DNA from: Nocardioides luteus
Lineage (GTDB): Bacteria; Actinomycetota; Actinomycetes; Propionibacteriales; Nocardioidaceae
Assembly (NCBI RefSeq): GCF_015752315.1
Contig: NZ_JADOVJ010000001.1
Location: forward strand, 4,208,501 to 4,272,500
Direction of reading: 5' to 3'
DNA: 64,000 bases
Within the stretch, counting starts at the first letter, position 1; each line of letters opens with the position of its first letter. The notes under the pieces were generated by a model. It made no database searches and was not told the DNA's origin. It saw only the letters and a list, made by a program, of their open reading frames with translations. This document shows positions 1 to 20,411 of this stretch, in pieces. The translations under genes were made by a program, and so were the position numbers.

Positions 1-179
1 TCCACACCCGTCGGAATCCGCGCCGAATACCGGTTGTCAGCGGGGTCGGCGCGGCGTCGCGGTAGCGCTGCGGCCACGAAGTCGGCAGCTGTCAGCCGCC
101 CGATCCGCGAAATCCTCGACGCTTTCCGCAGGGGGTGATGGCGGCCCGGGGTTTACCTCGCCGTTCGCTGTCCAGGCGG

Positions 180-195
180 TGTGACGGCAGTCACC
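180..195. promoter_or_regulatory. CRP/GlxR-like site
   Basis: The sequence TGTGACGGCAGTCACC matches the CRP-family consensus TGTGA-N6-TCACA in all but the last base. It lies about 60 bases upstream of the small membrane protein gene that starts at 254. Bases 1-179 show no other gene or motif I can support. The role is inferred from the motif only. Confidence 0.35.
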
Positions 196-253
196 ATTCC
201 GAGACAACGTGCGGCACGAGCCACGCGTTCACCGGAAGAATCGAGGTCGCTCC

Positions 254-517
254 ATGACGTTCGAGACCTTGCTGGTCATGGCGGTCGGTATCGCGGCGCT
301 GACCGGTCTGCGGATCGTTCTGGCCCTCATCGGAAAGGGGCATGCCGCCGACCACTCGACGATCCCGCGCCCGCGGGAAGAGGGTGCGGTCGGCACCAGG
401 CGCCGCGCGGTACGCGGCACGGGACGCAACCGGAACCTGCTGTACTTCGTGCCGAGCCAGGAACCGCAGCCGATGCTGGAAGCTCGGCAGGCTACAGCGT
501 CCGGCGAGCGCCGTTGA
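254..517 (+). CDS. small single-pass membrane protein
   Basis: This 87-residue protein is of no family I recognise. Residues 1-22 or so form one hydrophobic helix (MTFETLLVMAVGIAALTGLR), followed by a basic, Arg-rich, probably cytosolic tail. I chose the ATG at 254 over the in-frame ATG at 209 because GAGG lies just upstream and the protein then begins directly with the membrane helix. Its 3' end overlaps the convergent gene ending at 492 by 26 bases. A CRP-like site lies about 60 bases upstream. The reading frame is short, so a spurious ORF cannot be ruled out. Confidence 0.45.
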   Translation: MTFETLLVMAVGIAALTGLRIVLALIGKGHAADHSTIPRPREEGAVGTRRRAVRGTGRNRNLLYFVPSQEPQPMLEARQATASGERR

Positions 518-950
518 CCTTCTGCCGGAGCCAGGCGGGGATGCGGTCCTCGTCGCGGGGGAACGTCTCGAGGTCGAGCGCGTACAGCCCCGGATGGGCC
601 GGCCAGCGCCAGACCGGCTCGTCGTCGTAGTTGAACACGACCTTCGTCGAGTTCTTCTCCCCCTCGCCCTCGCCGCTGGCGATGGTCCAGCGGGCGGAGA
701 ACCAGGCGCCCCGGCCCGGCTCGTACATCACCCGCCGGAGCTCGTCGGTCAGCGCGAGGATCGTCTCGGGCGGACGGGCGTAGGCGAAGCTGCCGTCCGG
801 CCGGTGCACGTCGATGCGTCCGGTGAAGAACATCGACAGGTTGCGGTGGTTGAAGACCAACGTGGACCAGTCGCCCTCGACCTCGTCGGCGAGGTGGAGG
901 GCGATCTCATCGATGAGCTGTTCCTGTCTGACCACAGGAGGAACGGTCAT
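492..950 (-). CDS. YezG/DUF600-like immunity protein
   Basis: The 152-residue soluble protein resembles the YezG (DUF600) immunity proteins that neutralise LXG/YeeF-type toxins in Firmicutes and relatives. Visible family-like features are an N-terminal helix with DEIALHLADEVEGDWSTLVF, a central GAWFSARWTI strand, the VVFNYDDEPVW strand and a C-terminal FPRDEDRIPAWL motif. The ATG at 950 follows an AGGAGG Shine-Dalgarno element on the minus strand. No toxin gene is nearby, so it is either an orphan immunity protein or a related domain with another role. The assignment rests on motif memory only. Confidence 0.5.
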   Translation of the reverse strand: MTVPPVVRQEQLIDEIALHLADEVEGDWSTLVFNHRNLSMFFTGRIDVHRPDGSFAYARPPETILALTDELRRVMYEPGRGAWFSARWTIASGEGEGEKNSTKVVFNYDDEPVWRWPAHPGLYALDLETFPRDEDRIPAWLRQKVNGARRTL

Positions 951-1097
951 GACCGCCAACCTACTACCGCTGTCGACCCCAATCCGGGACCAACGTCCCG
1001 AGGTCCGGCACAGTGAGGTGTTTCCCACACGTGACGGGACCGTGAGTTTCCGATGGCTCCGTGAACGCCGAGGACCGTTTCGGACTAGGTTGAGCAG

Positions 1098-1679
1098 ATG
1101 ACTCGGAACCCGCGACAGTCCCTCGATCGCTCCGTGCAGCGGCTGGGTTCCCGCGTGCGCGAGCTGCGCAAGGCGCAGGGGATGACGCTGGTCCAGCTCG
1201 CCGAGGCGACCGACCTGTCCCACCCGTTCCTGAGCCAGATCGAGCGCGGGATGGCACGCCCGTCGATGTCCTCGCTGTTCCGGATCGCGCAGACGCTGGG
1301 CACCACCCAGCAGGGCCTGCTGGCGGACAGCGTCGAGAGCCCCTCCGCAGGCCCGGCGGCGGTCGTACGCCGCTCCGACCCCGGCACCGCGGAGGCGTCC
1401 AACGGCGCGGTGCAGGCGCTGGTCGCCGGGGCCGACCATGCGTTCATCCCGATGGAGTTCGTCGGCGACGAGACGTCCTGGGACCGCTACTGGCAGCACG
1501 AGGAGGACGAGTTCGTCTACGTCGTGGGCGGGACGCTGCGGATCGACCTGGACGGCGAGGAGCAGGTCATGGAGACGGCCGACTCGGTCTACATCCCCGG
1601 CGGCGTACGTCACCGGTGGGCGAGCGCCGACGGCGAGCTCTTCCGGCTGCTGGTGGTCAAGGAGCAGCGCGGGCGCTGA
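1098..1679 (+). CDS. XRE-cupin transcriptional regulator
   Basis: This 193-residue regulator has an N-terminal HTH_3 DNA-binding domain (about residues 14-70: LRKAQGMTLVQLAEATDLSH, then FLSQIERG) and a C-terminal cupin_2 sensor barrel (about 105-190) with WQHEEDEFVYVVGG and IPGGVRHRW carrying the usual His/Glu ligands. Proteins of this layout (PuuR/ClgR-like) sense small catabolites and repress amine or amino-acid catabolic genes. Its 3' end overlaps the convergent amidohydrolase gene by 23 bases, and that gene is the last one of the seven-gene operon ending here. This makes it the best local candidate for the operon's regulator, possibly at the inverted repeat at 9166-9196. Confidence 0.85.
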   Translation: MTRNPRQSLDRSVQRLGSRVRELRKAQGMTLVQLAEATDLSHPFLSQIERGMARPSMSSLFRIAQTLGTTQQGLLADSVESPSAGPAAVVRRSDPGTAEASNGAVQALVAGADHAFIPMEFVGDETSWDRYWQHEEDEFVYVVGGTLRIDLDGEEQVMETADSVYIPGGVRHRWASADGELFRLLVVKEQRGR

Positions 1680-2895
1680 ACCGCGCCAGCTCCGCCACGA
1701 TCTCCCGCTCGTCGGCGGTGACGAGCACACCGTCGCGTACGACGACCCGGCCGGCCACGACCACGTGCCGCGGGCGCCGCCCGGGCGAGGCCCAGAGCAG
1801 CCCGGCCGCCGGGTCGTGGACCCCGGCGTCGGCGACGCCGGAGACGTCCCAGACACACAGGTCCGTCCCCGAACCCAGCCCCGGCCGACCGAGGCCGGAC
1901 GCTGAGCCGGTGGTCGCCATCTCGAGCACGTCGGCGGCGGCCAGCGGCGGACCGACCAGCGGCGCGACCTGCATGGCCAAGCGGGCGTCGGCGAGCAGGT
2001 GGCCGGCGTCGTTGCTGCCGCCGCCGCTGGTGCCCAGGCCGACCTCGACCCCGGCCTCGCGGAGCGCCGCGACCGGCGCGATTCCCCACCCCATCGGCAG
2101 GTCGCAGCCGGGTGCGTGCGTGGCGCTCACCCCGGCGGCGGCGAGCCGCCGGATCTCGTCCGGCGTCACGTCGCACAGGTGTGCCAGGGTCACGTCGGGC
2201 GCGAGCCAGCCCCACTCCTCCAGCAGGTCGATCGGGCGCCGGCCGTAGCGCTCGGCCGCGACCGCGACGTCGACCTGCTCGTTGGCCTGCGTACGCCGCC
2301 GCAGCCCGCGCCGGGCCGCCACCTCCCCCATCAGGCGGAAGGTCGGCTCCGGGTCCGAGTGCACCCCGGCCGGGCCGACGGCGACCTGCAGCATCCCGTC
2401 GGCGCTCACCCCGCCGGGCGCATCACCCACCAGCGCCTCGGCGATCAGGTCGGCGCTGCGCGCCGCGGTCTCGGGGTCGTCCCGGGCGGCACCACGGACG
2501 AACACCAATCGGGCGCCGAGCTCCGCTGCCGCCCTCGCGGTCCCCTGCGCCAGTGGCACCGTCTCCTCGGGAGTCAGGGCAGCCGGCCAGGTCAGGTGGT
2601 GGTCGGCGACCGTGGTGACCCCGCAGAGCAGCGACTCGGCGAGACCGGCCCGCGCCGCGGCGTACGTCAGCTCGGCGTCGACCCCGACCCGGTCGTAGGC
2701 CGCGGCCATCGTGGGCAGCCAGGTCGCCATCGGGACACCGCGGGTGCCGGGGAGGGTGCGGAACGCGGTCTGCAGCAGATGGTGGTGGGCGTTGACCAGG
2801 CCCGGCGTGACCAGGCATCCCGACGCGTCCAGGTCGTCGTCAGGCCCCTCGACCGAGAGATCCCCCGCGGCCGCGCCTGTGATCCGCAGCGTCAT
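1657..2895 (-). CDS. 8-oxoguanine-deaminase-like amidohydrolase, degenerate site
   Basis: This 412-residue protein belongs to the ATZ/TRZ branch of the amidohydrolase superfamily and most resembles 8-oxoguanine and hydroxyatrazine-type deaminases: VTPGLVNAHHHL near residue 35, HAPGCDLPMGWGIAPV near 260, and SNDAGHLLADAR near 294. The HxH metal ligands (H37, H39) and the later His (H239) remain. However, the third metal His of the HTHLAE motif is Gln (Q203 in RTQANE), and the catalytic Asp of the GVDG motif is Ser (S290 in GLGTSGGG). The N-terminal sandwich domain is also very short. It may have lost hydrolysis or changed chemistry. Its start overlaps the creatininase stop by four bases (ATGA). 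Confidence 0.8.
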   Translation of the reverse strand: MTLRITGAAAGDLSVEGPDDDLDASGCLVTPGLVNAHHHLLQTAFRTLPGTRGVPMATWLPTMAAAYDRVGVDAELTYAAARAGLAESLLCGVTTVADHHLTWPAALTPEETVPLAQGTARAAAELGARLVFVRGAARDDPETAARSADLIAEALVGDAPGGVSADGMLQVAVGPAGVHSDPEPTFRLMGEVAARRGLRRRTQANEQVDVAVAAERYGRRPIDLLEEWGWLAPDVTLAHLCDVTPDEIRRLAAAGVSATHAPGCDLPMGWGIAPVAALREAGVEVGLGTSGGGSNDAGHLLADARLAMQVAPLVGPPLAAADVLEMATTGSASGLGRPGLGSGTDLCVWDVSGVADAGVHDPAAGLLWASPGRRPRHVVVAGRVVVRDGVLVTADEREIVAELARFSARAAP

Positions 2896-3677
2896 GCCGA
2901 CGGCGTGAAGCGAGAGGCCTCCACGATGACCTCGGCCAGCGTCGCGACCCCGGCCTCGAAGCGGACCTTGCCGTCCTCGGCGGTGGCGGTGGTCGGGTCT
3001 CCGAGGTAGCCGTCGGTGCCGAAGTCGTCCGAGAGCCAGCCGAAGGAGACCGGCTTGCCGAAGCCGATGTGCCGGTAGCCGGCCAGCTGCTCGGGCACCT
3101 TCCGCTCCCCGCGCTCCTGGTGCACCAGCTCGGGCCTCAGATGGAGCATCATCGAGGTCTCGCCGTGGCCGCCGTGGATGCCGAGGCCGAGCTCGTCCGC
3201 CCGCGAGGAGGTGCCGCCCTGGTCGGGCGGCACGGACAGGTGCGCGAAGAAGGTCGCGAGACCGAACTGCTTGCGCAGCTCGCGGCTGGCGACCTGTCCG
3301 AGCGCGGAGTTGCCGCCGTGACCGTTGACGAAGAGCAGCCGGGTGATCCCCGACGTGCTCAGCGAGCGGCCGATGTCGACGAGCACCCGCATCAGGGTGT
3401 CCCAGGAGAGCCAGATCGTCCCGGGCGACCAGGAGTGCTCGTCGGACTTCGTGTAGGCCAGCGGCTCCAGCAGCACCACGGAAGCACTGCCCGCCTCGGC
3501 CACGGCAGCCACCGCCGCCGAGGCCGCCTCGGCGGCGATCACGTAGTCGGTCGAGACCGGTAGATGGGGGCCGTGCTGCTCGATCGCGCCGAGACCGAGG
3601 ACCGCCACCGTGTCCGGCGGCAGCTCGGCGATCTCGGGGGCGGTGAGGTCGGCGAAACGAGGCACGCGGTGGGGCAT
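2892..3677 (-). CDS. creatininase-family amidohydrolase
   Basis: This 261-residue protein is about the usual length of the creatininase/ArfB/MftE family, which opens cyclic amides or hydrolyses formamides with a di-metal site. The metal signature is intact: GAIEQHGPHLPVSTD (Glu, His and Asp ligands, about residues 31-45), VNGHGGN (about 116-122) and HGGHGETS (about 168-175). It is coupled on both sides: its start overlaps the FAD-oxidase stop by one base and its stop overlaps the amidohydrolase start by four. The context suggests a ring-opening or amide-cleaving step on the substrate imported by the neighbouring ABC system. The exact substrate is unknown; creatinine itself is only one option. 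Confidence 0.85.
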   Translation of the reverse strand: MPHRVPRFADLTAPEIAELPPDTVAVLGLGAIEQHGPHLPVSTDYVIAAEAASAAVAAVAEAGSASVVLLEPLAYTKSDEHSWSPGTIWLSWDTLMRVLVDIGRSLSTSGITRLLFVNGHGGNSALGQVASRELRKQFGLATFFAHLSVPPDQGGTSSRADELGLGIHGGHGETSMMLHLRPELVHQERGERKVPEQLAGYRHIGFGKPVSFGWLSDDFGTDGYLGDPTTATAEDGKVRFEAGVATLAEVIVEASRFTPSA

Positions 3678-5020
3678 CAGCGGACTCCGATGTTGACGCG
3701 GGTGTCGACCAGCGTGTGGTCGGTGAGCTTGCCCTGGTTGAGCAGCCCCTTGGGGTCGCGCTCGCGGGCGACGGCGGTGACGAGCTCGACGTTGCGGTCG
3801 ACGTACCACTGGTGGGGCGAGTGCACGCCCACGCCGATCTCGTCGAAGCGCGGGATGCCGGCGAGGACCTGCTCCTCGGAGACGTACTCGGCCACCACCA
3901 TCGCCAGCGGGCCTCGCCCCATCAGCTCCAGATGCAGCCAGACCGGCCCGTCGTAGACCTCGCGCACCCGGTCGGCATCGGTCCAGTAGAGCTCGCCCCC
4001 GGTCTCCATGTGGAACCAGGTCCGGTCACGGTGCGCGCGCTGCAGGAAGTAGACCGGGTGGTTGTAGGACATCCCGGAGAGCAGATCGGTCGCGGCGTAG
4101 TCCTCCAGACACGCCCGTACGCTGCCCCCGGCCGCCACGACGAGCGACTCGATCTCGGCGACCGTGGAGGCCTCGGCGATCACCCGGAGGCTGTGCTGGG
4201 CCGGGTCGAGCGAGACGTTGGTGGTCAGGGTCGGGACCAGCGCGGGCTCGTCGCCCGAGGCCAGCCGCGGCAGCACCGGCAGGTCCAGCAGCCGGCGGTG
4301 CACCGACACCATCGCCTCCCAGCTGTCGAAGGCGGCGTAGACCGCCACCCAGTCGCGCGCGGGATCGGTGCGCACCACCACCGAGGTCACGACGCCGGTC
4401 ACGCCGTAGGCGTGGATGTAGGGCAGCGTCTCCTCGCCCCGCATCGTGAGCAGGCGGCCGCTCCCGTCCATCGGGGCCACGGTCAGCTCGGTGACGAAGC
4501 CGTCGGAGGTGGTGCCGTGCTCGATCGTCCCGGTGCCGGCGCTGCCGCCACCGATGAAGCCGCCGATCGTGGAGCCCTTGGTGGAGGGGAAGATCCACAG
4601 GTCGCGTCCGGCCTCGCGGGCCACCTTGTCGATCCGGGTCATCCGGGCCCCGGCCCCGGCGCGTACGTCGCCGTCGGGCAGCACCTCGATCGCGTCCAGG
4701 CCGCGGAGGTCGAGGATGATCCCACCGGTGAACGGGGTCGCCTGGCCGTAGTTGCCCGTCCCGGCGCCGCGCGGGACGACCGGCACGTCGTGCTCGAAGG
4801 CCAGGGCCAGGATGTCGGCGACCTCCTGCTCGGTCCGCGGCCGGACGATGGCATCGGCGACGTACCGGCCGCTCGGCACCTTCTCCTGGAGGATCGGGGA
4901 CATCCGCGACCAGTCGGAGGAGAGCTTGACCAGCGCGGCCGGGTCGGTCTCGACCCGGTCCGCGCCGAGGCGGTCGGCGACCAGGGCGGTCACCAGGGAC
5001 GTACGCTGCGAAGTCGTCAT
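3677..5020 (-). CDS. FAD-linked oxidase (PCMH/GlcD type)
   Basis: This 447-residue flavoprotein has the PCMH/VAO FAD-binding fold: an N-terminal helix, VVPRGAGTGNYGQ (about residues 76-88), the pyrophosphate loop GGFIGGGSAGTGTIEHG (about 155-171), then a divergent substrate/cap domain ending with RDPKGLLNQGKL, the usual GlcD-type C-terminal signature. Such enzymes oxidise hydroxy acids, alcohols or amines. The gene sits between the ABC lipoprotein (five-base gap) and the creatininase (one-base overlap), so it probably oxidises the imported compound or an early intermediate. No Cys or His for bicovalent FAD attachment could be assigned with confidence. Confidence 0.85.
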   Translation of the reverse strand: MTTSQRTSLVTALVADRLGADRVETDPAALVKLSSDWSRMSPILQEKVPSGRYVADAIVRPRTEQEVADILALAFEHDVPVVPRGAGTGNYGQATPFTGGIILDLRGLDAIEVLPDGDVRAGAGARMTRIDKVAREAGRDLWIFPSTKGSTIGGFIGGGSAGTGTIEHGTTSDGFVTELTVAPMDGSGRLLTMRGEETLPYIHAYGVTGVVTSVVVRTDPARDWVAVYAAFDSWEAMVSVHRRLLDLPVLPRLASGDEPALVPTLTTNVSLDPAQHSLRVIAEASTVAEIESLVVAAGGSVRACLEDYAATDLLSGMSYNHPVYFLQRAHRDRTWFHMETGGELYWTDADRVREVYDGPVWLHLELMGRGPLAMVVAEYVSEEQVLAGIPRFDEIGVGVHSPHQWYVDRNVELVTAVARERDPKGLLNQGKLTDHTLVDTRVNIGVR

Positions 5021-5025
5021 CGGCG

Positions 5026-6210
5026 TCACTTCATCGAGATCGAGTCGTCGATGAACCGGTTGTCGTAGAGCGACTCCGGGTCGATGTCGTCGGAGGTGAT
5101 CGTGCCGGCCTGCTTCATGATCGGCGCGAACGTCTCGACGATCTCCTTCATCCGCTCGCCGTCGATCTGGCCGAAGACCCCCGACTTCGGGTCGTCGTGG
5201 ACCAGGTCGAGGTCGGTCATCGTCTCGGCGGCGTACGCAGCCACGCCCTCGCTGTAGGTCCAGCCGGTCTGGTAGCGCTCGACGATGTCGACGATGACGC
5301 CGTTGGCCCAGTCCGGGTCCGCCAGGTAGTCGATCTCGGCCTGCTGCATCACCGGGACGAGCTTCTCGAGGCAGTCGGCCTCCTTGTCGACATCCTCGGC
5401 GCGTACGGCGATCGGCTCGGGGTAGATGCTGTAGCCGATCTCGGAGAGGAGCTGGTAGCCGATCGGCTTGCCCCAGCTGCTGATCTCCTTCTCGTAGATG
5501 TAGGGCTCGGCGGTGGCGAACCCCTGCTGGAGGATCGTCGGCTCGGTGACGAAGCGCTGCGGGGTGCCCTCGTAGGAGAGGTCCGACTGCTTCTTCTCGA
5601 TCATCCCCTGCGACTCGAGCAGCGCGGGGATCACGTCGCCGGCGGTCACGACGGGGTCGCCGTCCTTCGCGGCGTCGGCGACGGTCTTCGCGCCGTCCTG
5701 GCTCTTCGGGTCCCACATCAGGATCTGGGGCGAGACGGTCAGCTGCGAGGTCAGCGCCACGGTGGGCTGCTTCTCCGCGGCCGCGATCGCGGCGTCGGTG
5801 TTAACCGCTCCGATGAGGATGTCCTTGTCGAGGTACATCGTCGCCGGGACGGGCTGGAACCCGGTCGCCGGGCCACCCGAACGGACCTCGATCTTCACGC
5901 CGGTGTCGACGCCTCCGGAAACGAGCGGACCGGTGACGGTCTTCTTGTCGGTGTCGACGGTGTAGCCCTCGCCGACCAGGCTGTACATGCCGCCGTGCTC
6001 GGCCTCGGGCTGCCAGTCCTGCTGCATCACCACGGTCGCGGGGCAGACGTCGGAGAGGTCCTTCGCGCTGCCCTTCTCCGCCTTGGTCACCTCGCCCGCA
6101 GAGGCGGTGTTGGTGGCGCCGGCGTCGCTGCCGCAGCCGGTCAGGGCGAGCGGGACGATGGTCGAGAGTGCTACCAGGGTGGCGGTACGCAGGGGTAGGT
6201 GTCGGTTCAT
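5026..6210 (-). CDS. ABC transporter substrate-binding lipoprotein
   Basis: The 394-residue protein begins with a lipoprotein signal peptide and the lipobox LTGC (lipidated Cys about residue 23). The mature part has the look of periplasmic-binding-like folds in NitT/TauT/THI5-type importers, with domain swaps around LIGAVNTDAAIAA and TILQQGFATAEPYIYE. It should bind the nitrogenous substrate outside the membrane and deliver it to the permease encoded just downstream of the ATPase. The start ATG at 6210 gives a canonical MNRHLPLR n-region. It is followed closely by the FAD-oxidase gene. The ligand cannot be read from sequence. Confidence 0.8.
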   Translation of the reverse strand: MNRHLPLRTATLVALSTIVPLALTGCGSDAGATNTASAGEVTKAEKGSAKDLSDVCPATVVMQQDWQPEAEHGGMYSLVGEGYTVDTDKKTVTGPLVSGGVDTGVKIEVRSGGPATGFQPVPATMYLDKDILIGAVNTDAAIAAAEKQPTVALTSQLTVSPQILMWDPKSQDGAKTVADAAKDGDPVVTAGDVIPALLESQGMIEKKQSDLSYEGTPQRFVTEPTILQQGFATAEPYIYEKEISSWGKPIGYQLLSEIGYSIYPEPIAVRAEDVDKEADCLEKLVPVMQQAEIDYLADPDWANGVIVDIVERYQTGWTYSEGVAAYAAETMTDLDLVHDDPKSGVFGQIDGERMKEIVETFAPIMKQAGTITSDDIDPESLYDNRFIDDSISMK

Positions 6211-6241
6211 GCTGGGTCCGTTTCTGGGGTGAGGGAGGGGG

Positions 6242-7132
6242 TCAGCGCTCGCCGTACCACTTGCCGATGACGGCACGGTCGAGGGCGGCGAAGGCCGAGA
6301 AGACGACGACTCCGAAGAGGGCGGTCAGGATGATCGCCATGAAGAGCGGCTCCATGCTGAGCCGCAGCGTGTAGACGCGGAGCAGGCCACCGATGCCGGG
6401 GCTGCCCTGCTGGAAGTAGAAGTCACCGACGATCACGCCGATGACCGACAGCCCGGCAGCGTTGCGCAGGCCGGTGAAGATCGCGGGCATCGCGGCGGGC
6501 AGCTGCAGCTTGAGCAGCCGCTGCAGCCGGTTCGCCCGGTTGAGGGTGAACAGGTCGTGTGCCGGCGCCGTCGCCGACTGCAGACCGAAGAGGGTGTTGG
6601 CGATCATCGGGAAGACGGCGATGATCACGCAGACCACGATCCGGGCGGAGATGCCGTAGCCCATCCAGATCCCGATCAGCGGGGTCAGCGCCAGGATCGG
6701 GACGGTCTGCAGGATGACGGCATAGGGATAGAGCACCTTCTCCAGGAGCCGGGTCTGGGCCATCACCATCGCCCAGGCCATCCCGATCACCACCGAGATC
6801 ACCAGACCGGCCAGCGCGACCTGGACCGACTGCCACAGCGCCGCGAGCATCGGCTGCATGACCTCCGGTCGGCCGAGCGTCTCGCCGAAGACCTGGTGCG
6901 GCGGCGGGAGCAGGAACCGCTTGTCCTCGCTCAGGATGACGTACGTCACCAGGTACCACAGCCCCGCCAGGCCGGCGAGCGCCGCGATCATCGGCACCAC
7001 CTTGGCGAGGAGGCGGCGCAGCACCGAGGGCGTACGCCTCCTGGGCTCTGCAGGCGCAGCCTCGGTCACGGCGGCGATGTCCGGCTCGACGACCGGCCCG
7101 GCGCTCAGCCCTGCGCTCAGCTCGGTGCTCAT
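6242..7132 (-). CDS. NitT/TauT-type ABC permease
   Basis: This 296-residue inner-membrane protein has six predicted membrane helices and the BPD_transp_1 architecture of SsuC/TauC/ThiX permeases. The EAA coupling loop is visible as LFTLNRANRLQRLLKLQLPA followed by AMPAIFTGLRNA. The N-terminal 45 residues are a Pro/Ala-rich cytosolic extension before the first helix. The ATG overlaps the upstream ATPase stop by four bases (ATGA), so the two subunits are translationally coupled. It forms the channel for the importer with the ATPase at 7129-7869 and the lipoprotein at 5026-6210. Confidence 0.9.
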   Translation of the reverse strand: MSTELSAGLSAGPVVEPDIAAVTEAAPAEPRRRTPSVLRRLLAKVVPMIAALAGLAGLWYLVTYVILSEDKRFLLPPPHQVFGETLGRPEVMQPMLAALWQSVQVALAGLVISVVIGMAWAMVMAQTRLLEKVLYPYAVILQTVPILALTPLIGIWMGYGISARIVVCVIIAVFPMIANTLFGLQSATAPAHDLFTLNRANRLQRLLKLQLPAAMPAIFTGLRNAAGLSVIGVIVGDFYFQQGSPGIGGLLRVYTLRLSMEPLFMAIILTALFGVVVFSAFAALDRAVIGKWYGER

Positions 7133-7869
7133 GCGTGCTCCTCCAGTGCCTGGGAGACCTGGCCGACCAGATGGGCGAAGTCGGACTCGAACCGCAGCTC
7201 GGGCGGTCGCGGGAACTCCCAGGGCACCGGGATCTCCGCGACGATCCGTCCGGGGCGGCCGCTCATCACCACGACGCGGGTGGAGAGGTAGACCGCCTCG
7301 GCCACGGAGTGGGTGATGAAGAGACCGGCGAAGCCCTTGAGCCTGAAGAGCCGCTGCAGCTCGGTCTGCATCGCCAGCCGGGTGATCTCGTCGAGGGCTC
7401 CGAACGGCTCGTCGAAGAGGGCGAGGTCGGGTTCGGCGACCAGCGCGCGGGCGATCGAGACCCGCATCCGCATGCCTCCGGAGAGCTGGCGCGGATGCTG
7501 CTTCTCGAAGCCGGTGAGGCCGACGAGGTCCAGCGCCTCCTGGGCAGCCCGTTGCCGCTGTGACTTCGGGAGCCCGCTCAGCTCGCCGATCAGCTCGACG
7601 TTCTTCCGGGCGCTGCGCCACTCCAGCAGGGTGGGGTCCTGGAAGACGTAGCTGGTGGTGCCGGCGTCGACCTCGACCCGACCGACGGTGGCCTCCTCGA
7701 GTCCCGAGGCGAGCCGGAGCAGGGTGGACTTGCCGCAGCCGGACGGGCCGACGACGGAGACGAACTCGCCGGCGTCGACGCTCAGGTCGACCCCGGTCAG
7801 CGCGGTCGTGCCGGTCGGGAAGCGCTTGGTCACCCCGGAGAGGGCGAGCGTGGCGGTGGTCGTTTTCAT
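7129..7869 (-). CDS. NitT/TauT-type ABC ATPase
   Basis: The 246-residue ATPase has every ABC motif: Walker A GPSGCGKSTLL (about residue 40), Q-loop in SYVFQDPTLLEW, signature LSGGMRMRVSIARAL, Walker B LALFDEPFGALD and the H-loop in FITHSVAEAV. It is closest in style to SsuB/TauB/NrtD. It powers the importer formed with the next two gene products. Its start lies one base after the stop of the deaminase gene, consistent with the operon's second position. Confidence 0.92.
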   Translation of the reverse strand: MKTTTATLALSGVTKRFPTGTTALTGVDLSVDAGEFVSVVGPSGCGKSTLLRLASGLEEATVGRVEVDAGTTSYVFQDPTLLEWRSARKNVELIGELSGLPKSQRQRAAQEALDLVGLTGFEKQHPRQLSGGMRMRVSIARALVAEPDLALFDEPFGALDEITRLAMQTELQRLFRLKGFAGLFITHSVAEAVYLSTRVVVMSGRPGRIVAEIPVPWEFPRPPELRFESDFAHLVGQVSQALEEHA

Positions 7870-7870
7870 G

Positions 7871-9148
7871 TCACCTCGGCATGGGATCGAGATCGAGGAC
7901 GGTGCTGACGCGGGTGTCGGCGACCACCCGACCGCCGTGGACGACGATGCGGGCGGCCTGTGTGCCGGCGACGACCTCGTCGACGGGCACGTCGGGGACG
8001 AGCATGAAGTCGGCCCGGGCGCCGGGCCCGGTGCCGGCGGCCAGGAGCCCGAGCACGGTGCGGGTCGTGGTCGTGACGGCGGCGAGGGCCTCGGCGGGCC
8101 GGAGATGCCCCGCGGAGACCAGGAGCGAGGTGGTCTCGAACGGGTCCGCCCGGCCGACCGGGTTGAACGGGTCGCGCAGGTTGTCCGCACCGGCCGCGAC
8201 CGGCACACCCGCGTCGAGCAGCGCCCGGACGGCGGTGAGGCCGCGCGGCACCGCCGCGTCGGCGTCGCGGCCCTGCAGGTAGAGGTTGGTGATCGGGAGG
8301 GTCACGATGCCGATCCCCGCCTTCGCGACCAGGTCCACGACGGGTCGGCGCCGATCGTGGTCGAGCATCCCGAGACGTACGCAGTGGGAGGCGGTCACCT
8401 GCTGCTGCAGCCCGCGCGCGATGACCTGCTCGGCGAGGTCGGCGAGGTCGAGGTGGGTGGTGGTGGTCTGCTCGTCGGTGTGCAGGTCGACGGGAAGACC
8501 GGATCGCTCGGCGTGGTCGAGGATGCGGCTGGTCTCCTTGGCCGGCTCGTCGGCCAGGTGCGGACAGCCACCGATGACATCGATGCCACGGCCGATCGCG
8601 TCCTCGATCACGGCGTCCGGGACGTCCTGCCCGGCGAGCAGGCAGACCTGGAGGGTGACCGCTCCGCGGAGCTCCTCGCGCAGGCCGAGCAGGGCGTCGA
8701 CCCCGCGCAGCGGGTCGCCCGCGAGGAGCGCGTCGGCATGCGTACGGATCGTGGTTATGCCGTTCGCCACGTAACGACGAACCGCCCGCCGGGCGCGTTC
8801 GGCGAAGTCGTCGGCGGTGAGCGTGGGGACGAGCGCACGCCACTGCTCGATGGCGGTGACCAGGTCGTTGCCCGCGTGCCGGCCCGGCGTGATCTGCTCC
8901 GCGCTCAGCGCCTTGTCGAGATGGGCATGCGGTTCACCCGCACCGGGGACCAGCCGCCAGCCGGTGGCGTCGGTCCCCGGACCGCCCTCGACCGGCTTGA
9001 CGACGGTGATCTCGCCGGCGGCGAGATCCAGATCGGCGAGGGTGCCGTCCAGGAGACGTACGTTGCGCAGCGCGGTCAGCTCCACGCCGGCCAGCGACGC
9101 CGGACCGTCCACCGGCCCGACCTGTCCCGCACCTCGTGCCCCGGTCAT
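7871..9148 (-). CDS. cytosine deaminase/AtzC-like amidohydrolase
   Basis: This 425-residue enzyme is of the CodA/AtzC (N-isopropylammelide amidohydrolase-like) family. All expected mononuclear metal and catalytic positions are present: H74 and H76 (EPHAHLDK), THAD near 136, H223 and E226 (DLHTDE), H255 (ASHCVRL) and D322 (GADNLRDPFNPVG). It probably deaminates or hydrolyses an N-heterocycle in the cytoplasm. It is the first gene of the seven-gene operon; AGGGG precedes the ATG at 9148, and the AT-rich inverted repeat 9166-9196 lies directly upstream. In contrast to the operon's last gene, this paralogous fold has an intact active site. Confidence 0.85.
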   Translation of the reverse strand: MTGARGAGQVGPVDGPASLAGVELTALRNVRLLDGTLADLDLAAGEITVVKPVEGGPGTDATGWRLVPGAGEPHAHLDKALSAEQITPGRHAGNDLVTAIEQWRALVPTLTADDFAERARRAVRRYVANGITTIRTHADALLAGDPLRGVDALLGLREELRGAVTLQVCLLAGQDVPDAVIEDAIGRGIDVIGGCPHLADEPAKETSRILDHAERSGLPVDLHTDEQTTTTHLDLADLAEQVIARGLQQQVTASHCVRLGMLDHDRRRPVVDLVAKAGIGIVTLPITNLYLQGRDADAAVPRGLTAVRALLDAGVPVAAGADNLRDPFNPVGRADPFETTSLLVSAGHLRPAEALAAVTTTTRTVLGLLAAGTGPGARADFMLVPDVPVDEVVAGTQAARIVVHGGRVVADTRVSTVLDLDPMPR

Positions 9149-9165
9149 CGGCTACCCCTTCCCGG

Positions 9166-9196
9166 TCAAAAATGTTGATGAGATGAACATTTTTGA
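9166..9196. promoter_or_regulatory. operator-like inverted repeat of the catabolic operon
   Basis: Perfect 11-base arms, TCAAAAATGTT and AACATTTTTGA, flank a nine-base spacer. The element is strikingly AT-rich in a GC-rich genome and lies 17 bases upstream of the first operon start (9148). It is probably a dimeric regulator site overlapping the promoter. The XRE-cupin protein encoded at 1098-1679 is the nearest candidate ligand-responsive binder (inference). Confidence 0.7.
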
Positions 9197-9254
9197 GCGT
9201 AGGGAGCGGTTGTTTCGGCGGCGTAACCGTTTCGGTCCGCCTCGATGAAACCGT

Positions 9255-10091
9255 CTAGGACGTCGCGCGCACGGCGTCGGCGAACGCGCCGAGCACGTCG
9301 GATCCCGGGGCCGCCAGGTAGGCGACCATGGTCAGCTCGTCGTCGACCGTGCGCATCTTGGTGAGCTCCAGCTCGACCCGCCCGAGGCTCGGATGGTGGA
9401 CGACACGGGTGTGGGAGCCGATCGCGGCCAGGTCACGGCGGCCCCACAGCGTACGGAACTCCTCGCTGACCGCCTCCAGGTCGGCGACCAGCTTCGCGAC
9501 CTCCGGGTCGGCCATGTCGACGGCCGTCTGCGAGCGGAAGAAGGCGACCGCCTCGGCCGCCTCGGTCTCCCAGTCCTCCGACATCGCCCGCACCTGCGGC
9601 GAGGTGAAGGTCAGCCAGATGACGTTGCGCTCGACCTCGTCGAGCTGGTCGAGGCCCGGGAAGAGCAGCTCCGCTCCCCGGTTCCAGGCGACGATGAAGA
9701 AGTGGCGGTCGACCACGAACGCCGGGTTCGGGTCGAGGTGGTCGAGCAGCCGCTGGTAGTGACCGGCATCGGAGCGCTCCGCGCCTCGGGGCGGCAGCTC
9801 GCCGGACAGCCGGAAGAGGTGCTGGGTCTCGAGCTCGTCGAGGCCGAGCACCTCGGCGATGCTGGAGAGCACCTGCCGAGACGCCCGTACGTCCTGTCGC
9901 CCCTGCTCCAGCCAGGTGTACCAGGTGACGCTGACGGCGGAGAGCGTCGCCACCTCCTCGCGGCGCAGGCCCGGCGTACGTCTGCGCCCACTCACCCGCA
10001 GGCCCACGTCCTCGGGGCGCCGGCGCTCGCGGCGGCTGCGGAGGAAGTCGCCGAGCTCGCGGCGCAGGTCGAGGCTGGTCACGACCTCCAT
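9255..10091 (-). CDS. MmyB-type XRE regulator
   Basis: This 278-residue regulator has an N-terminal HTH (about residues 30-90: RRRTPGLRREEVATLSAVSV, then YTWLEQGR) and the C-terminal MmyB-like ligand-binding domain (VDRHFFIVAWNRGAELLF, ERNVIWLTFTSP, HHPSLGRVELE). MmyB proteins usually sit divergently next to an SDR oxidoreductase they are thought to control. The SDR at 10204 is divergent with a 112-base shared promoter region that contains several CTGGT half-sites. A long in-frame upstream extension exists but has no RBS and non-gene-like composition, so I start at 10091. Confidence 0.9.
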   Translation of the reverse strand: MEVVTSLDLRRELGDFLRSRRERRRPEDVGLRVSGRRRTPGLRREEVATLSAVSVTWYTWLEQGRQDVRASRQVLSSIAEVLGLDELETQHLFRLSGELPPRGAERSDAGHYQRLLDHLDPNPAFVVDRHFFIVAWNRGAELLFPGLDQLDEVERNVIWLTFTSPQVRAMSEDWETEAAEAVAFFRSQTAVDMADPEVAKLVADLEAVSEEFRTLWGRRDLAAIGSHTRVVHHPSLGRVELELTKMRTVDDELTMVAYLAAPGSDVLGAFADAVRATS

Positions 10092-10203
10092 TGTGCCCAA
10101 GCCTGGTGATCCGACTACCAGCATCGACTGCATCTGGTTGGCCCCCGCCTGGTTCGTGACGATCGTCGTATCGCCTGACAGATCCCGAGGAACGAGGAAA
10201 GAC

Positions 10204-11049
10204 ATGAGCAACGTGTTCATCACCGGAGCGACCGGCGGCATCGGTGTGCCGACGGTGCGGATGCTCGCCGGCCAGGGCCACCGGGTCTTCGCCGGCGTAC
10301 GTGACCACAGCCTCGCCCGCGCCTTCGACGACCTCGCCGGCGTGGTTCCGGTGCAGGTGGACGTCACCGACGAGGCCTCGGTGGCCGCGGCAGCGAAGGC
10401 GGTCGCAGCGCAGCTCGGCGCCGACTCGCTCGATGCCGTCGTCAACAACGCCGGCATCATCGTGCAAGGACCGCTGGAGCTGGTCGAGGGCGCCGAGCTG
10501 GAACGGCAGCTGCGGGTCAACGTGCTCGGTCCCGCGACCGTCATCCGGGCGTTCCTGCCGCTGCTGCGTCCCGGCCCCGGCCGGATCGTCAACGTGTCCG
10601 CCCCGACCGCACGCCGGGCCGTGCCGTTGATGGCACCGATCTCGGCGAGCAAGGCCGCGCTCGAGTCGCTCTCCGTCGCGCTGCGCGGCGAGCTGGCACC
10701 GTGGGGCATCAAGGTCGTCATCGTCGAGCCGACGGCGACGGACACCCCGATCTTCGCCCGGGCGCGCGCGGCGGCCGAGGAGTCGCTCGAGCGCGCCGAC
10801 CCGCAGCTCCAGCGGATGTATGCCCCGTCGATCGACGCCGCGGACGAGGCCGCGGCGAAGATGACCCTGGCCGACCCGGACTCGATCGCCAAGGTCCTGG
10901 TCACCGCGGTGACGACCGCTCGGCCGCGGACCCTCTACACCGCCGGGCGCGGCGCCGGGATGCTGCCCATGGTCGGCCGCCTTCCCGATCCTCTGGCCGA
11001 CGCCATCATCGCCCGCGCCATCGGGATCGCAGGAGTGCAGGCCGGGTGA
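10204..11049 (+). CDS. SDR oxidoreductase lacking the catalytic Tyr
   Basis: This 281-residue Rossmann-fold protein begins FITGATGGIGVP (cofactor glycine motif) and has VVNNAG in the right place, so NAD(P) binding is likely. In the catalytic YxxxK motif the Tyr is replaced by Ile (PISASKAAL), with the Lys retained. The Ser position (NVSAP) is present. It may be a reductase with altered proton donation or a sensor/partner protein. It follows an AACGAGGAAAGAC Shine-Dalgarno region and is divergent from the MmyB-type regulator at 9255-10091. Two small membrane-protein genes follow at 11084 and 11446 and may be co-transcribed. Confidence 0.85.
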   Translation: MSNVFITGATGGIGVPTVRMLAGQGHRVFAGVRDHSLARAFDDLAGVVPVQVDVTDEASVAAAAKAVAAQLGADSLDAVVNNAGIIVQGPLELVEGAELERQLRVNVLGPATVIRAFLPLLRPGPGRIVNVSAPTARRAVPLMAPISASKAALESLSVALRGELAPWGIKVVIVEPTATDTPIFARARAAAEESLERADPQLQRMYAPSIDAADEAAAKMTLADPDSIAKVLVTAVTTARPRTLYTAGRGAGMLPMVGRLPDPLADAIIARAIGIAGVQAG

Positions 11050-11083
11050 CATACCTGGCGGCGTCCGCGGGTACCGACCGAGC

Positions 11084-11446
11084 ATGCAGCCGTCATCCAC
11101 CTCCGATGCGCCGACCGGGCCCGCGGTCGCCCAGGGCGTGTTCAACATCGTCGGAGGTCTGTGGCCGCTGGTGAGCCTGCGCAGCTTCGAGTGGGTGTTC
11201 GGCCCCAAACGTGACCGCTGGCTGGAGTACACGGTCGCCGGTCTGCTCTGCGTCAACGGCGCGGCCCAGATCGCCGCCGCCCGGGCCGGCGAGCCGGTCG
11301 CGGCACGCCGGATCGGCCAGGGCACCGCGCTCACCCTGCTCGCGATCGACCTCGTGTTCGTCCCCATGGGACGGATCCGCTGGACCTATCTGATCGACGC
11401 CGCCCTGGAGGCCGGCTGGCTGGTCGCCTGGCGAGGTGCTCGCTGA
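11084..11446 (+). CDS. small integral membrane protein
   Basis: The 120-residue protein has about four hydrophobic segments (around VFNIVGGLWPLVSL, YTVAGLLCVNGAAQIAA, GTALTLLAIDLVFVP and YLIDAALEAGWLVAW). I cannot name the family. It lies 34 bases after the SDR stop, and its TGA overlaps the next ATG by one base, so it is probably translated with the membrane protein at 11446. The pair may form a small membrane complex; nothing indicates the substrate. Confidence 0.7.
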   Translation: MQPSSTSDAPTGPAVAQGVFNIVGGLWPLVSLRSFEWVFGPKRDRWLEYTVAGLLCVNGAAQIAAARAGEPVAARRIGQGTALTLLAIDLVFVPMGRIRWTYLIDAALEAGWLVAWRGAR

Positions 11447-11898
11447 TGGTGACGAACGGCGTGGTGCTCGTCTGGCTCTTCACGATGGCCGCCGGGGCCT
11501 TCATGTTCGGCACCGCGAGCCGCTTCGGCGCCCCGCCGGCAGCCATCCGCAACTCCCGGCTGCCGGCTCCGGCCCTGCTCTCCCACCCCACCCTGACGGG
11601 AGGCGCCTTCGCCGCCTGGCTGGGCTTCCTCATCACCGAGGAGCGCGCCTGGGCCTGGGTCGCCGTCGGCATGCTCGCCGCCGGCATCTGCCTCGGCGCC
11701 TTCCTGTTCGTACGCACCATGAAGCCCGAGCACGTCGTCCTCGCCGAGGAGACCGACGAGGTCGTCGGCGAGCCCGTGCGCGTGCCATACGACGTCGCCG
11801 AGCACGAGATCCCGCGCCCGGTGATCTACGGCCACGGGATCTTCGCCGCCGTCACCTTCACTCTCGTCCTGCTGGTCGCGCTCGGCGTCGTCAGCTGA
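11446..11898 (+). CDS. four-helix membrane protein
   Basis: The 150-residue protein shows four hydrophobic helices (VVLVWLFTMAAGAFMFG, GAFAAWLGFLI, WVAVGMLAAGICLGAFLFV and IFAAVTFTLVLLVAL). A charged, acidic loop lies between helices three and four (residues about 90-125). The family is not recognised. Its start overlaps the stop of the preceding small membrane gene by one base. The convergent SDR gene begins its 3' end 18 bases downstream. Confidence 0.7.
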   Translation: MVTNGVVLVWLFTMAAGAFMFGTASRFGAPPAAIRNSRLPAPALLSHPTLTGGAFAAWLGFLITEERAWAWVAVGMLAAGICLGAFLFVRTMKPEHVVLAEETDEVVGEPVRVPYDVAEHEIPRPVIYGHGIFAAVTFTLVLLVALGVVS

Positions 11899-11915
11899 CG
11901 TTCGTCCACAGCTCT

Positions 11916-12674
11916 CTAGAGGTTGAACCCGCCGGAGGCCTCGATGTCCTGGCCCGTGACCCAGCGAGCGCCGTCGGACAGGAGGAACGCGATCACCCCG
12001 GCGATGTCCTCGCCCTCGCCGATCCGGCCCAGGGCCGTCTGGGCCGCGAGCGGGGCGATGACCTCCGGGTGCTTGGCGAACCCGTCGTCGCCCAGCCGGG
12101 TCCGTGTGGGTCCCGGCGCGACCGAGTTGACCCTGATCCCCCGCGGGCTGAGCTCCTTGGCCAGGTAACGGGTCCACACCACGACGGCGCCCTTCAGCGC
12201 GCCGTACGCCGAGTATCCGGGGGTGAGACCGGTCAGCCCGGCGGCGTTGCTGGAGGTGTTCACGATCGCGCCGCCGTCAGCCAGGAGGGGCAGCAACCGC
12301 TGCGTGAGGAAGTAGGGCCCCTTGAGCAGCGCGTCGGAGAGCTCGTCGAACGTCCCGACGTCCATCTGATCGAAGGGCAGGGCCCGCGAGAGTCCGGCGT
12401 TGTTGACGAGGCTGGTGAGACGGTCGGTCTGCCAGACGTCTTTCAGACAGCGTCGTACGTCCTCCACGAAACCGTCGAAGGTCTCGACGCTCCCGACATC
12501 GAGCGGCAAGGCCGCCGCGGTCCCACCCGACCTCGTGATCTGCTCGACGGTCGCCTCGGCGCCGTCGGGGTTGTTGCGGTAGGTCACGATCACGCCGGTC
12601 CCCTGACGTGAGAGCTGGAGCGCCGTGCTCTGGCCGATGCCTGAGCTACCACCGGTGATGAGAGAGATGTTCAT
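11916..12674 (-). CDS. SDR-family oxidoreductase
   Basis: This 252-residue classical SDR (3-oxoacyl-ACP-reductase-like) has LITGGSSGIGQS at the N terminus, LVNNAG, the catalytic Ser in IVNTSSNAAG and an intact YGALK pair. The C terminus has the usual DIEASGGF 'Gx-dGG' ending. It likely uses NADP(H) on an unknown carbonyl or alcohol. It is divergent from the MFS exporter at 12857, with a 182-base intergenic region between them. Confidence 0.88.
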   Translation of the reverse strand: MNISLITGGSSGIGQSTALQLSRQGTGVIVTYRNNPDGAEATVEQITRSGGTAAALPLDVGSVETFDGFVEDVRRCLKDVWQTDRLTSLVNNAGLSRALPFDQMDVGTFDELSDALLKGPYFLTQRLLPLLADGGAIVNTSSNAAGLTGLTPGYSAYGALKGAVVVWTRYLAKELSPRGIRVNSVAPGPTRTRLGDDGFAKHPEVIAPLAAQTALGRIGEGEDIAGVIAFLLSDGARWVTGQDIEASGGFNL

Positions 12675-12856
12675 GCCTTCGAGCCTGGTGCCTGGCGACC
12701 CGATGCCCTAGACCGTTCCTGGTGATCTCTTGCCTGATCCTGCTCGGTTGGCCCCTTGTGGGCAACAGGGACACGTCCTCTCGCCACCGGCCATCCGGTC
12801 AAGCACGGGCGACGGATGATCAAGGCGGGCGGTCGGATCGCGGCGACGATCGAAGG

Positions 12857-14038
12857 GTGACATCGACTTCGCCGGCTTCGACCGCCACCCCGACCACCCC
12901 ACCGACCACGACCTCCGGGCGCGCCGCGCCGGTGGTCGCGCTCGCCGCCGGGATCGCGATCCTGGTCTCGAGCGAGTTCCTGCCCGCCGGTGTGCTGCCC
13001 ACGATGGCGCGCGACCTCGGGATCAGCGAGGGGACCGCCGGGCTGGCGGTGGCCGCGACCGCGATCGCCGGGGCGGCCACCGCGCCGACCATCGCCATGG
13101 TCTTCCCCCGGCTGGACCGGCGTACGTTGCTGGTCGGCCTGCTCGTCGCCGCCGCGGTCGCCAACCTGGCGGTCGCGGTGGCCCCGGGCTTCGTCGTCCT
13201 GCTCCTCGGCAGGCTGGTGCTCGGGGCGGCGATCGCCGGCTACTGGTCCTTCGCCTTCGCCGTCGGGACGTACGCCTCGCCCGGCCGTGACCACGTGATC
13301 TCGACCTCGATCGCGCTGGGCGTCACGGTCGCCACGATCCTCGGCCTGCCGCTGGGCTCGCTGCTCGCCGACGGGCCAGGCTGGCGCTGGGGGTTCGCGG
13401 CGGCCACGGCGCTGAGCCTGGCCTCCGCCGCCGCGCTGGCGCGGGCGCTGCCGCCGGTGCCGGCCCATCCGGCGGCGGGGCTGACCATGATGCGTCAGGC
13501 CCTCCGCAACCCGCTCCTGGTGGCCGGCGTGGTGGTGCTGGTCGTGGTGGTGCTCGGGAACTTCCTGGCGTACCCGTTCATCCGGATCGCCATCGCCGAG
13601 ACCTCCCCGGGTGCGGGCATGTGGATGCTGGCGCTGTGGGGCCTCGGTGGGCTCTTCGGCAACCTGGCGGCCGGCCGGTTCTCCCACCGCCTGCGTGCGG
13701 TCGTGACCGTCGCGCCGCTCCTTCTCGCCGGCGGGCTGCTGCTGACCGTCCTCGCCGAGAGCACGCCGGTGATGGCGCTGGCGATGCTGGTGTGGGGATT
13801 CGGGTTCAACATGGTGCCGGTCGGCACCCAGCTGTGGGTCACCCGCGTCGAGCCGGAGCGCACCGAGTCGGCGCTGGCGCTCCAGGTCACCGCCTTCCAG
13901 GTGGCGATCACCCTCGGTGCGGCGCTAGGAGGCGCGGTGCTCGACCAGTACGGCGTCGGCCGGGTGCTCCTCATCGGAGCGATCGGGGCGGCCGTCGCCG
14001 CGGCAGGCTTCGGCGCGCTCCGCGTGCCGCGCTCCTGA
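12857..14038 (+). CDS. MFS transporter (DHA1 type)
   Basis: This 393-residue protein has twelve predicted helices and belongs to the AraJ/CmlA-like DHA1 drug or sugar efflux family. The GTG at 12857 follows GAAGG and puts the first helix (VVALAAGIAILVSSEFLPAG) at about residue 23 after a Thr/Pro-rich tail; an earlier in-frame ATG at 12722 would add a non-membrane extension. The 3' end overlaps the convergent AraC-type gene by 114 bases, well beyond what is usual. It probably exports small molecules; the substrate is unknown. Confidence 0.88.
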   Translation: MTSTSPASTATPTTPPTTTSGRAAPVVALAAGIAILVSSEFLPAGVLPTMARDLGISEGTAGLAVAATAIAGAATAPTIAMVFPRLDRRTLLVGLLVAAAVANLAVAVAPGFVVLLLGRLVLGAAIAGYWSFAFAVGTYASPGRDHVISTSIALGVTVATILGLPLGSLLADGPGWRWGFAAATALSLASAAALARALPPVPAHPAAGLTMMRQALRNPLLVAGVVVLVVVVLGNFLAYPFIRIAIAETSPGAGMWMLALWGLGGLFGNLAAGRFSHRLRAVVTVAPLLLAGGLLLTVLAESTPVMALAMLVWGFGFNMVPVGTQLWVTRVEPERTESALALQVTAFQVAITLGAALGGAVLDQYGVGRVLLIGAIGAAVAAAGFGALRVPRS

Positions 14039-19544: not shown

Positions 19545-20411
19545 ATGTCGGAGACTGGTGGGGTGGAGTCATCGGAGTTCGGCCGGGTGCTGCGGCGCTG
19601 GCGTGACCGCGTGGATCCCGCCGCGGTCGGCCTGCCTGCGGGTGGCCGGCGACGAGCCGCCGGGCTGCGGCGCGAGGAGGTCGCCGGCCTGGCCGGCATC
19701 TCGGTCGACTACCTGACCCGGCTCGAGCAGGGCCGGGCGACCTCGCCGTCGGCGCAGGTCGTCGAGGCGCTGGCCCGGGCGCTCCGGCTTCCGGACGCCG
19801 ACCGTGACCTGCTGTTCCGTCTGGCCGGCCACGCCGCTCCCGGCCGGGAGGCGATCTCCACGCGGGTCTCGCCGAGCGTGCAGCGGCTCCTCGACCGCCT
19901 GGCGCACACCCCGGTCGTGGTCTACGACGCGGCGTGGAACCTGGTGATCGCCAACGAGGCCTACGACGCGCTCATGGGCGCGACCACGACCTGGCAGGGC
20001 CGCGAGCGCAACGCGGTGTGGCGCAACTTCGTCGGCCCGGGCAGCCGGGCGGTCACCTCCCCGGCGGAGACCGAGGCGCTGCAGGCGGGGCTGGTCGCCG
20101 ACCTGAGGCTCACCGCCGCTCGCTATCCCGGTGACCAGCGGCTGCGACGGCTCCTCGACGACCTGCGCGCCGCCAGCCCACGCTTCGTGGACCTGTGGGA
20201 GAGCGCCGACCCTTCCCGGCACCATGAACCGGCCCGGCACAAGGTCATCGACCATCCCACCGTCGGCCCGATCGCGCTCGACTGCGACACGCTCACCGTC
20301 GCCGTCGAGGACCTGCGGATCATGGTCTACACCGCCGATCCGGGCACCGAGGACGCCGATCGTCTGGCCCTGGCGACGGTCGTCGGCAACCAGACGCTCG
20401 AGGATCGCTGA
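19545..20411 (+). CDS. MmyB-type XRE regulator
   Basis: The 288-residue regulator has an N-terminal HTH (AAGLRREEVAGLAGISVDYL, then TRLEQGR, about residues 37-65) and a MmyB ligand-binding domain (VVVYDAAWNLVIANEAYDAL, RNAVWRNFVGPGSR, VIDHPTVGPIALDCD). It probably controls the divergent SDR at 18754-19461 in response to a small ligand. A GTG at 19563 is an alternative start. It is about 30-35% identical by eye in its conserved blocks to the paralogue at 9255-10091, so they are separate specificities rather than a recent duplication. Confidence 0.9.
   Translation: MSETGGVESSEFGRVLRRWRDRVDPAAVGLPAGGRRRAAGLRREEVAGLAGISVDYLTRLEQGRATSPSAQVVEALARALRLPDADRDLLFRLAGHAAPGREAISTRVSPSVQRLLDRLAHTPVVVYDAAWNLVIANEAYDALMGATTTWQGRERNAVWRNFVGPGSRAVTSPAETEALQAGLVADLRLTAARYPGDQRLRRLLDDLRAASPRFVDLWESADPSRHHEPARHKVIDHPTVGPIALDCDTLTVAVEDLRIMVYTADPGTEDADRLALATVVGNQTLEDR

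Follow-up and report, generated by a model that had tools for sequence, protein, structure and literature searches.

In the open papers searched, little is said on how bacteria break down the pterin ring of folate, and the thin basis that exists consists of a PDB title and assayed pterin deaminases. The title, that of 6V42, names a flavin oxygenase 'involved in folate catabolism'; the assayed pterin deaminase from Variovorax sp. F1 deaminates folate and pteroate and is termed an orthologue of Arad3529 (PMC9513972). Here we describe a predicted seven-gene operon (genes A–G) and an accompanying regulator gene (H) from Nocardioides luteus and compare them with these systems. They lie in a stretch of 64,000 nucleotides (G000:C1:4208501-4272500), in the following called the window, to which all positions refer unless a contig is named. 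On balance the operon probably serves to import a pteridine, most likely a pterin derived from folate or a folate fragment, and to degrade its ring; we read the cluster as a new variant, found in actinobacteria, of a pathway that has hardly been described. Among the papers listed by literature searches there was no published account of the whole gene set. A previous sequence-only reading of this DNA had known of no described pathway with this exact set; that the set is without a described counterpart is not supported, as the same core is found in Proteobacteria around proteins that are 66% identical to 6V42.

Relatives of 6V42 and of pterin deaminases

Gene E (5020-3677, 447 amino acids, on the minus strand like all genes from A to G) encodes a VAO-type FAD enzyme with a FAD_binding_4 match, a homologue of 6V42, which is its closest solved structure and comes first by sequence as well as by fold with a wide margin. 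The surroundings of 6V42 relatives were compared in 14 annotated proteobacterial plasmid regions, chosen from 17 + 153 records matching E or the putative lipoprotein D described below, so that the presence of E or D in them is no independent evidence. In their gene tables, which are incomplete, all 14 have a creatininase-family and a RidA entry; listed besides are an amidohydrolase or 'cytosine deaminase' in 13 (all except Agrobacterium L140), an ABC (ATP-binding cassette) importer likewise in 13 (all except Ruegeria L139) and an NAD(P)H-dependent or VanB-type reductase in nine. Aligned over its residues 7-443, 6V42 itself shares 66% identity with the E proteins of Rhizobium phaseoli and Rhizobium L51/94 and 41-61% with those of the other 12 regions, and the likeness to the 6V42 system rests on these regions of its relatives and not on the neighbourhood of 6V42 in its own host.

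Gene A (9148-7871, 425 amino acids, Pfam PF07969/PF01979, Amidohydro_3/1) encodes a CodA/AtzC-type amidohydrolase that we propose to be a pterin deaminase. In the PDB it matched CodA at 7e-35, and the metal ligands of CodA (HxH, H, E, H and D) are kept in 67/67 aligned loci, this being the number aligned out of 85 given, three of which are duplicates. In the same proteins the positions of Gln156, Asp314 and Trp319, which we take to be the cytosine contacts of CodA, are altered: Asp314 is replaced by Asn and Trp319 by Phe in 67/67, and the position of Gln156, a loosely aligned column, is mostly Gly or Ser and in 0/67 Gln, with Gln standing in the adjacent column in 12/67 and in the window's own A. 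The sequence-only reading, which had named A a 'CodA/AtzC-like deaminase', was thus right about the family; the qualification is that residues by which CodA binds cytosine are altered. Cytosine deaminase as an identity for A was rejected, since the NCBI cut-offs were missed and the residues of the cytosine pocket are altered.

A protein 73% identical to A of the Comamonadaceae cluster (P0160) carries the name 'Pterin deaminase', and the close relatives of this A belong by name mostly to Variovorax; with the Comamonadaceae relative the window's A shares 31% identity over 287 residues. 'Endoribonuclease' is an older name for the RidA family. A primer for the Variovorax F1 work was placed in a downstream 'endoribonuclease' gene (PMC9513972). 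By its name this neighbour of the F1 pterin deaminase would thus be a RidA gene; in the Klebsiella and Pantoea clusters RidA follows A.

Conservation of the genes, the operator and the regulator

According to the list of open reading frames (ORFs) and their translations, A–G are seven intact frames running from 9148 to 1657 without internal stops. They had been described as packed at 1-5 bases, which is true for five of the six junctions (A/B with a gap of 1 base, B/C overlapping by 4, D/E with a gap of 5, E/F overlapping by 1 and F/G by 4), but C and D are separated by 31 bases, the sole junction beyond this range. The importer would be formed by the ATPase B (7869-7129, 246 amino acids, PF00005 ABC_tran with 101 bits), the permease C (7132-6242, 296 amino acids, PF00528 BPD_transp_1) and D (6210-5026, 394 amino acids). 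C is of the NitT/TauT type and the NCBI models TauC, NtrB and SsuC all match it below their cut-offs. ATPase and permease of a NitT/TauT importer are present, and D is without a match to a family of the NMT1/THI5 type. All other genes belong by Pfam to the families that had been named for them (A, B, C, E, F, G and H), but D matches no Pfam model, neither its sequence nor its profile gave a credible PDB match, and its AlphaFold2 model, made from a six-sequence alignment, was with a pLDDT (predicted local distance difference test) of 55 too poor for a fold search. Three things lead us to call D a putative substrate-binding lipoprotein: its position, the invariance of Cys26 in 6/6 aligned sequences (the lipobox was judged by eye) and the presence of B, and likewise of C, in 74/80 loci fetched with D.

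These loci come from a search with a D profile, which found 560 relatives in the genome collection; the best 80 of the 560 are the actinobacterial loci, and 57 of the 80, each at least 20.9 kb long, have full flanks. Neighbours were counted by translated search, as an earlier survey of ORF families had mixed genes with antisense shadow frames. Among the 57 full-flank loci A–F are complete in 47, A–G in 40 and A–H in 36, and ten are without part of A–F. The comparison thus indicates that A–G is a conserved unit of import plus catabolism, as had been predicted for the seven genes; of the seven families together, the six core genes bear this out, while G is the loosest. E has 675 relatives and the set is widespread in natural isolates; within the order the cluster is patchy, as E was found at 1e-60 in 7/196 genomes searched (own included). 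An A homologue of some kind is present in 20/58 genomes searched (own included), and among 13 longer stretches the five best-match ones carry A–F, with the genes split over both strands in L028 and without G in L026, whereas the eight weaker ones show no matches to D, E or F.

Across the window and the 37 loci that have all eight genes, distance correlations were 0.86-0.94 among A, E and F and 0.88-0.95 among B, C and D. G shows the weakest correlation with the other genes (0.36-0.59) yet the highest mean identity (73%). For all six gene pairs tested, G included, the correlation lay above all 1000 permutations, and the correlations therefore reflect shared ancestry as well as function. Our reading is that A, E and F may form a catalytic core and the importer B-C-D a second module, with G travelling more loosely. 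In four Microbacterium loci (L040, L044, L048 and L050) B, C and D are 66-71% identical to those of the window but A, E and F just 38-48%, and importer and enzyme modules thus appear to have been recombined.

In front of A lies a palindrome (9163-9199, 15-51 bases upstream of the first base of A), whose arms (9163-9179 and 9183-9199) are 88% complementary and whose core at 9172-9190 agrees with the operator consensus ATGTTGATnnnATCAACAT at 15/16 positions. This is the sole place in the window with at most two mismatches to the consensus, and 0/100 shuffles have one; in the own genome it is the one strong site (1 mismatch), with five further places at 3 mismatches. At 13/16 positions or more the consensus gave 58 sites in 38/80 actinobacterial loci (1.47 Mb), compared with 0-5 matches for each of 20 shuffled-arm palindromes across the same 1.47 Mb. 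With the starts of A and H extrapolated from alignments, 26 sites lie within 100 bases upstream of A and 26 within 210 bases of H, 11 of them both, giving 41 sites near either gene and 17 near neither. Judged by this recurrence the palindrome is a conserved operator, in agreement with the role first suggested for it. In L057 and L060, sites matching at 16/16 positions precede Flavin_Reduct genes, which start 28-49 bases from them, another 16/16 site is located at the start of a Flavin_Reduct gene in L042, and in L057 an amidohydrolase frame, which overlaps an MTHFR-like frame, starts 71 bases after a 16/16 operator.

The XRE-cupin gene H (1098-1679, plus strand, PF01381 HTH_3 and PF07883 Cupin_2) is convergent with G, their 3' ends overlapping by 23 bases, and its product is proposed to bind this operator. 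For the comparison of H with operator sites the 38 loci were reduced to 35 by leaving out L045 (match within gene D) and L114 and L115, whose matches lie beyond F and away from A and which are both without H. The gene was found in 26/26 full-flank loci of this set but in 18/31 other full-flank loci, and with L114 and L115 restored in 26/28 with a site and 18/29 without. The XRE-cupin gene therefore tends to accompany the operator, and H is likely to be the operator binder; as both are common to related lineages, the co-occurrence is no test of binding. Between 900 and 9400 neither a sigma-70-like promoter nor an intrinsic terminator was detected, the lack of the former saying little in an actinobacterium, and an Rfam scan of 1-13000 gave no match.

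Near H a 152-amino-acid frame without Pfam match is found on the minus strand (492-950). The window also encodes two MmyB-type regulators (MLTR_LBD; 9255-10094 and 19545-20411), the first of which has a relative in just 3/80 related loci, and a protein of 1417 amino acids with Laminin_G_3 and bacterial Ig-like domains (44149-48402) that is probably located at the surface or secreted.

The probable substrate of the operon and the alternatives

F (3677-2892, 261 amino acids) is an amide hydrolase of the creatininase superfamily (PF02633 Creatininase, 218 bits) and is 31-41% identical to the creatininase-family proteins of all 14 proteobacterial clusters. Its earlier naming as a creatininase-family hydrolase is correct for the superfamily, but F remains below the NCBI cut-offs both for creatininase (TIGR04448, 85.3 bits, cut-off 235) and for the mycofactocin peptidase MftE (TIGR03964, 129.6 bits, cut-off 172); creatininase as its identity was thus rejected in favour of PF02633 only. 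G (2895-1657, 412 amino acids, PF01979 Amidohydro_1) is an amidohydrolase resembling TrzN and 8-oxoguanine deaminase, which it matched in the PDB at 7e-60 and 3.7e-46, respectively. With 233.6 bits it falls far under the cut-off of 532 of the NCBI model for 8-oxoguanine deaminase (NF006055), and this identity was rejected as well. A plasmid search with G at 1e-40 gave no match.

The natural reading of this set is still the one originally proposed, in which one ring is imported, deaminated, acted on by a flavin enzyme and hydrolysed at an amide bond. In the pathway we suggest, D, C and B would import a pterin or folate fragment, from which A would remove the exocyclic amino group of the ring to give a lumazine, as pterin deaminases do. 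E would then oxygenate or oxidise the ring, perhaps using the electrons of a separate reductase, F would open a lactam or amide arising from this step and G might act, by deamination or hydrolysis, on a further intermediate with a pteridine or purine-like ring. H would sense a metabolite via its cupin domain and control the operon at ATGTTGATnnnATCAACAT.

The genes beside related clusters are consistent with such a substrate. MTHFR-like genes occur in 20/57 and FTCD_C genes in 7/57 full-flank loci, none of the 20 MTHFR-like loci being among the ten with incomplete A–F, and neither was found in a control of 12 other stretches (228 kb), which is small and in which one stretch overlaps the window. 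We infer that these one-carbon genes would fit a pathway stripping one-carbon groups from folates. Reductase genes stand beside the clusters as well, VanB-like ones in 30/80 and those of the Flavin_Reduct type in 12/80 loci. A more far-reaching version is possible but doubtful as a whole: the cluster would be a complete, self-contained actinobacterial route to import and open the pteridine ring of vitamin B9, with a CodA-like pterin deaminase, a VAO-type flavin oxygenase and a creatininase-fold lactam hydrolase at its core, G would be a native pteridine aminohydrolase of the stock that gave rise to TrzN, and the XRE-cupin regulon at ATGTTGATnnnATCAACAT would in some genera include the MTHFR-like and flavin reductase genes.

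Several observations weigh against a folate-derived pterin. Structure alignments give E 25-27% identity to 6V42, its identity to E of the proteobacterial regions is 27-31% for 13 of the 14 (38% for Salipiger, over 232 residues only), and the window's A is 29-34% identical to 13 proteobacterial A proteins; with such low identities to the proteins of the 6V42 group, the window's enzymes may act on another substrate. 6V42 is tied to folate by its PDB title, and no paper on it turned up among those listed. The F1 pterin deaminase has 399 residues compared with mostly 418-433 for the listed Variovorax relatives of the cluster A, and in the Comamonadaceae cluster (L121) RidA stands after E instead of after A; the assayed gene may therefore come from outside such a cluster. 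RidA was found in 0/80 actinobacterial loci with two proteobacterial RidA queries, neither RidA nor a reductase is among the nine window genes scanned with Pfam, and the window cluster has no MTHFR-like, FTCD_C or reductase gene, the best reductase homologue of the own genome being far off at G000:C1:2948263. Moreover, Microbacterium supplies 8/20 MTHFR-like and 6/7 FTCD loci, so that the loci are not independent, and the Pfam matches to MTHFR are weak (24.5-51 bits with a cut-off of 24), for which reason 'MTHFR-like' is meant loosely. No folate side-chain hydrolase is among the neighbour families listed (25/76). Xanthine dehydrogenase, XdhC and uricase are neighbours in Agreia (L106), and the proteobacterial regions of Nitratireductor and Rhizobium phaseoli list ureidoglycolate lyase and allophanate hydrolase, respectively. 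It is the low identity, the lack of a reductase, RidA or one-carbon gene and these purine and ureide neighbours that hold our confidence in a pteridine at a cautious 'probable' and leave some weight for a purine and less for a pyrimidine.

A purine-type substrate, which we regard as unlikely, would mean import of a modified purine (8-oxoguanine, guanine or a methylated purine) or of a purine breakdown product, with a urate-like compound as the product of G and a purine derivative as the substrate of A, E and F. The resemblance of G to 8-oxoguanine deaminase agrees with this, as do the ureidoglycolate lyase and allophanate hydrolase just mentioned, the xanthine dehydrogenase-like genes in 7/57 and uricase genes in 6/57 full-flank loci and an AtzH-amidase which lies beside 8/80 clusters and has a relative adjoining a uricase gene elsewhere in the own genome. 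However, G is absent from 17/57 loci and is the least correlated gene, so that it may be a neighbour and not part of the core. Uricase or xanthine dehydrogenase is not listed in the 14 proteobacterial regions with their incomplete gene tables, and purine genes of this kind lie elsewhere in the own genome, as a xanthine-dehydrogenase-like gene and at two uricase loci.

Less likely still is that a pyrimidine, for example the one in thiamine, is taken up and degraded. In favour of this, A is homologous to CodA, in the Klebsiella cluster the binding protein has distant relatives among the N-formyl-aminopyrimidine-binding (6.7e-6) and THI5 (3.7e-4) proteins, and genes of the acetamidase/formamidase family are found in 6/80 and flavin reductase genes in 12/80 clusters. 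Against this stand the exchanged Asp314, Trp319 and Gln156 positions of CodA in the aligned A proteins and the fact that D matches no pyrimidine-binding protein; among the neighbour families listed (25/76), thiamine genes were not noticed near the clusters. Finally, catabolism of creatinine, a hydantoin or a triazine, compounds named in the sequence-only reading, is very improbable. The creatininase superfamily of F and TrzN as the closest solved relative of G might point to it, but with 85 bits F stays short of the 235 required by the creatininase model, no hint in this direction comes from 6V42 or from the one-carbon genes of related clusters, and a man-made triazine would hardly account for the spread of the set across natural isolates.

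Two further loci of the own genome are recorded here. At G000:C1:4028000-4047900 (L134) an AtzH-amidase 47% identical to one beside related clusters lies with a uricase gene, a gene judged by eye to be OHCU decarboxylase-like and another ABC importer, whose ATPase shares 44% identity with B. A uricase locus with xanthine-dehydrogenase-like and XdhC-like genes is located at G000:C1:5017000-5036900 (L135), and as it is separate from L134 the own genome holds two uricase loci.

The operon among known systems

In summary, what comparison of sequences establishes is a conserved unit, a conserved operator, the association of H with this operator and the family of E. If the operon acts on a pteridine, as we think probable, each of its genes gains an expected substrate class, and the names 'cytosine deaminase' and 'creatininase' would be corrected in hundreds of cases, E having 675 and D 560 relatives. 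With its importer, three core enzymes, regulator and operator the conserved cluster makes the question of the pterin ring directly testable in non-pathogenic soil actinobacteria.

Compared with E. coli CodA (1k6w), the window's A has the fold family and every metal-ligand position in common, but CodA differs at the Gln156, Asp314 and Trp319 positions, which are changed in A and its aligned relatives. The pterin deaminases, that is Arad3529 of Agrobacterium, which is presumably a member of the amidohydrolase family, and the enzyme of Variovorax F1, belong to the same broad amidohydrolase group as A. G aligns with TrzN and 8-oxoguanine deaminase along almost its full length; unlike these, it sits inside a catabolic operon with an importer and below the NCBI cut-off for 8-oxoguanine deaminase. 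The flavin oxygenase of 6V42/6V43 has the same fold as E, which is homologous to it across almost the full length of E. The 6V42-type set of the Proteobacteria includes RidA (14/14) and often a reductase (9/14), both of which the window cluster lacks, and because RidA is missing we regard the latter as a variant and not a member of the proteobacterial form. Both share a CodA-like deaminase, a creatininase-family hydrolase and an ABC importer as companions of E, whereas G, H and the operator belong to the actinobacterial form.

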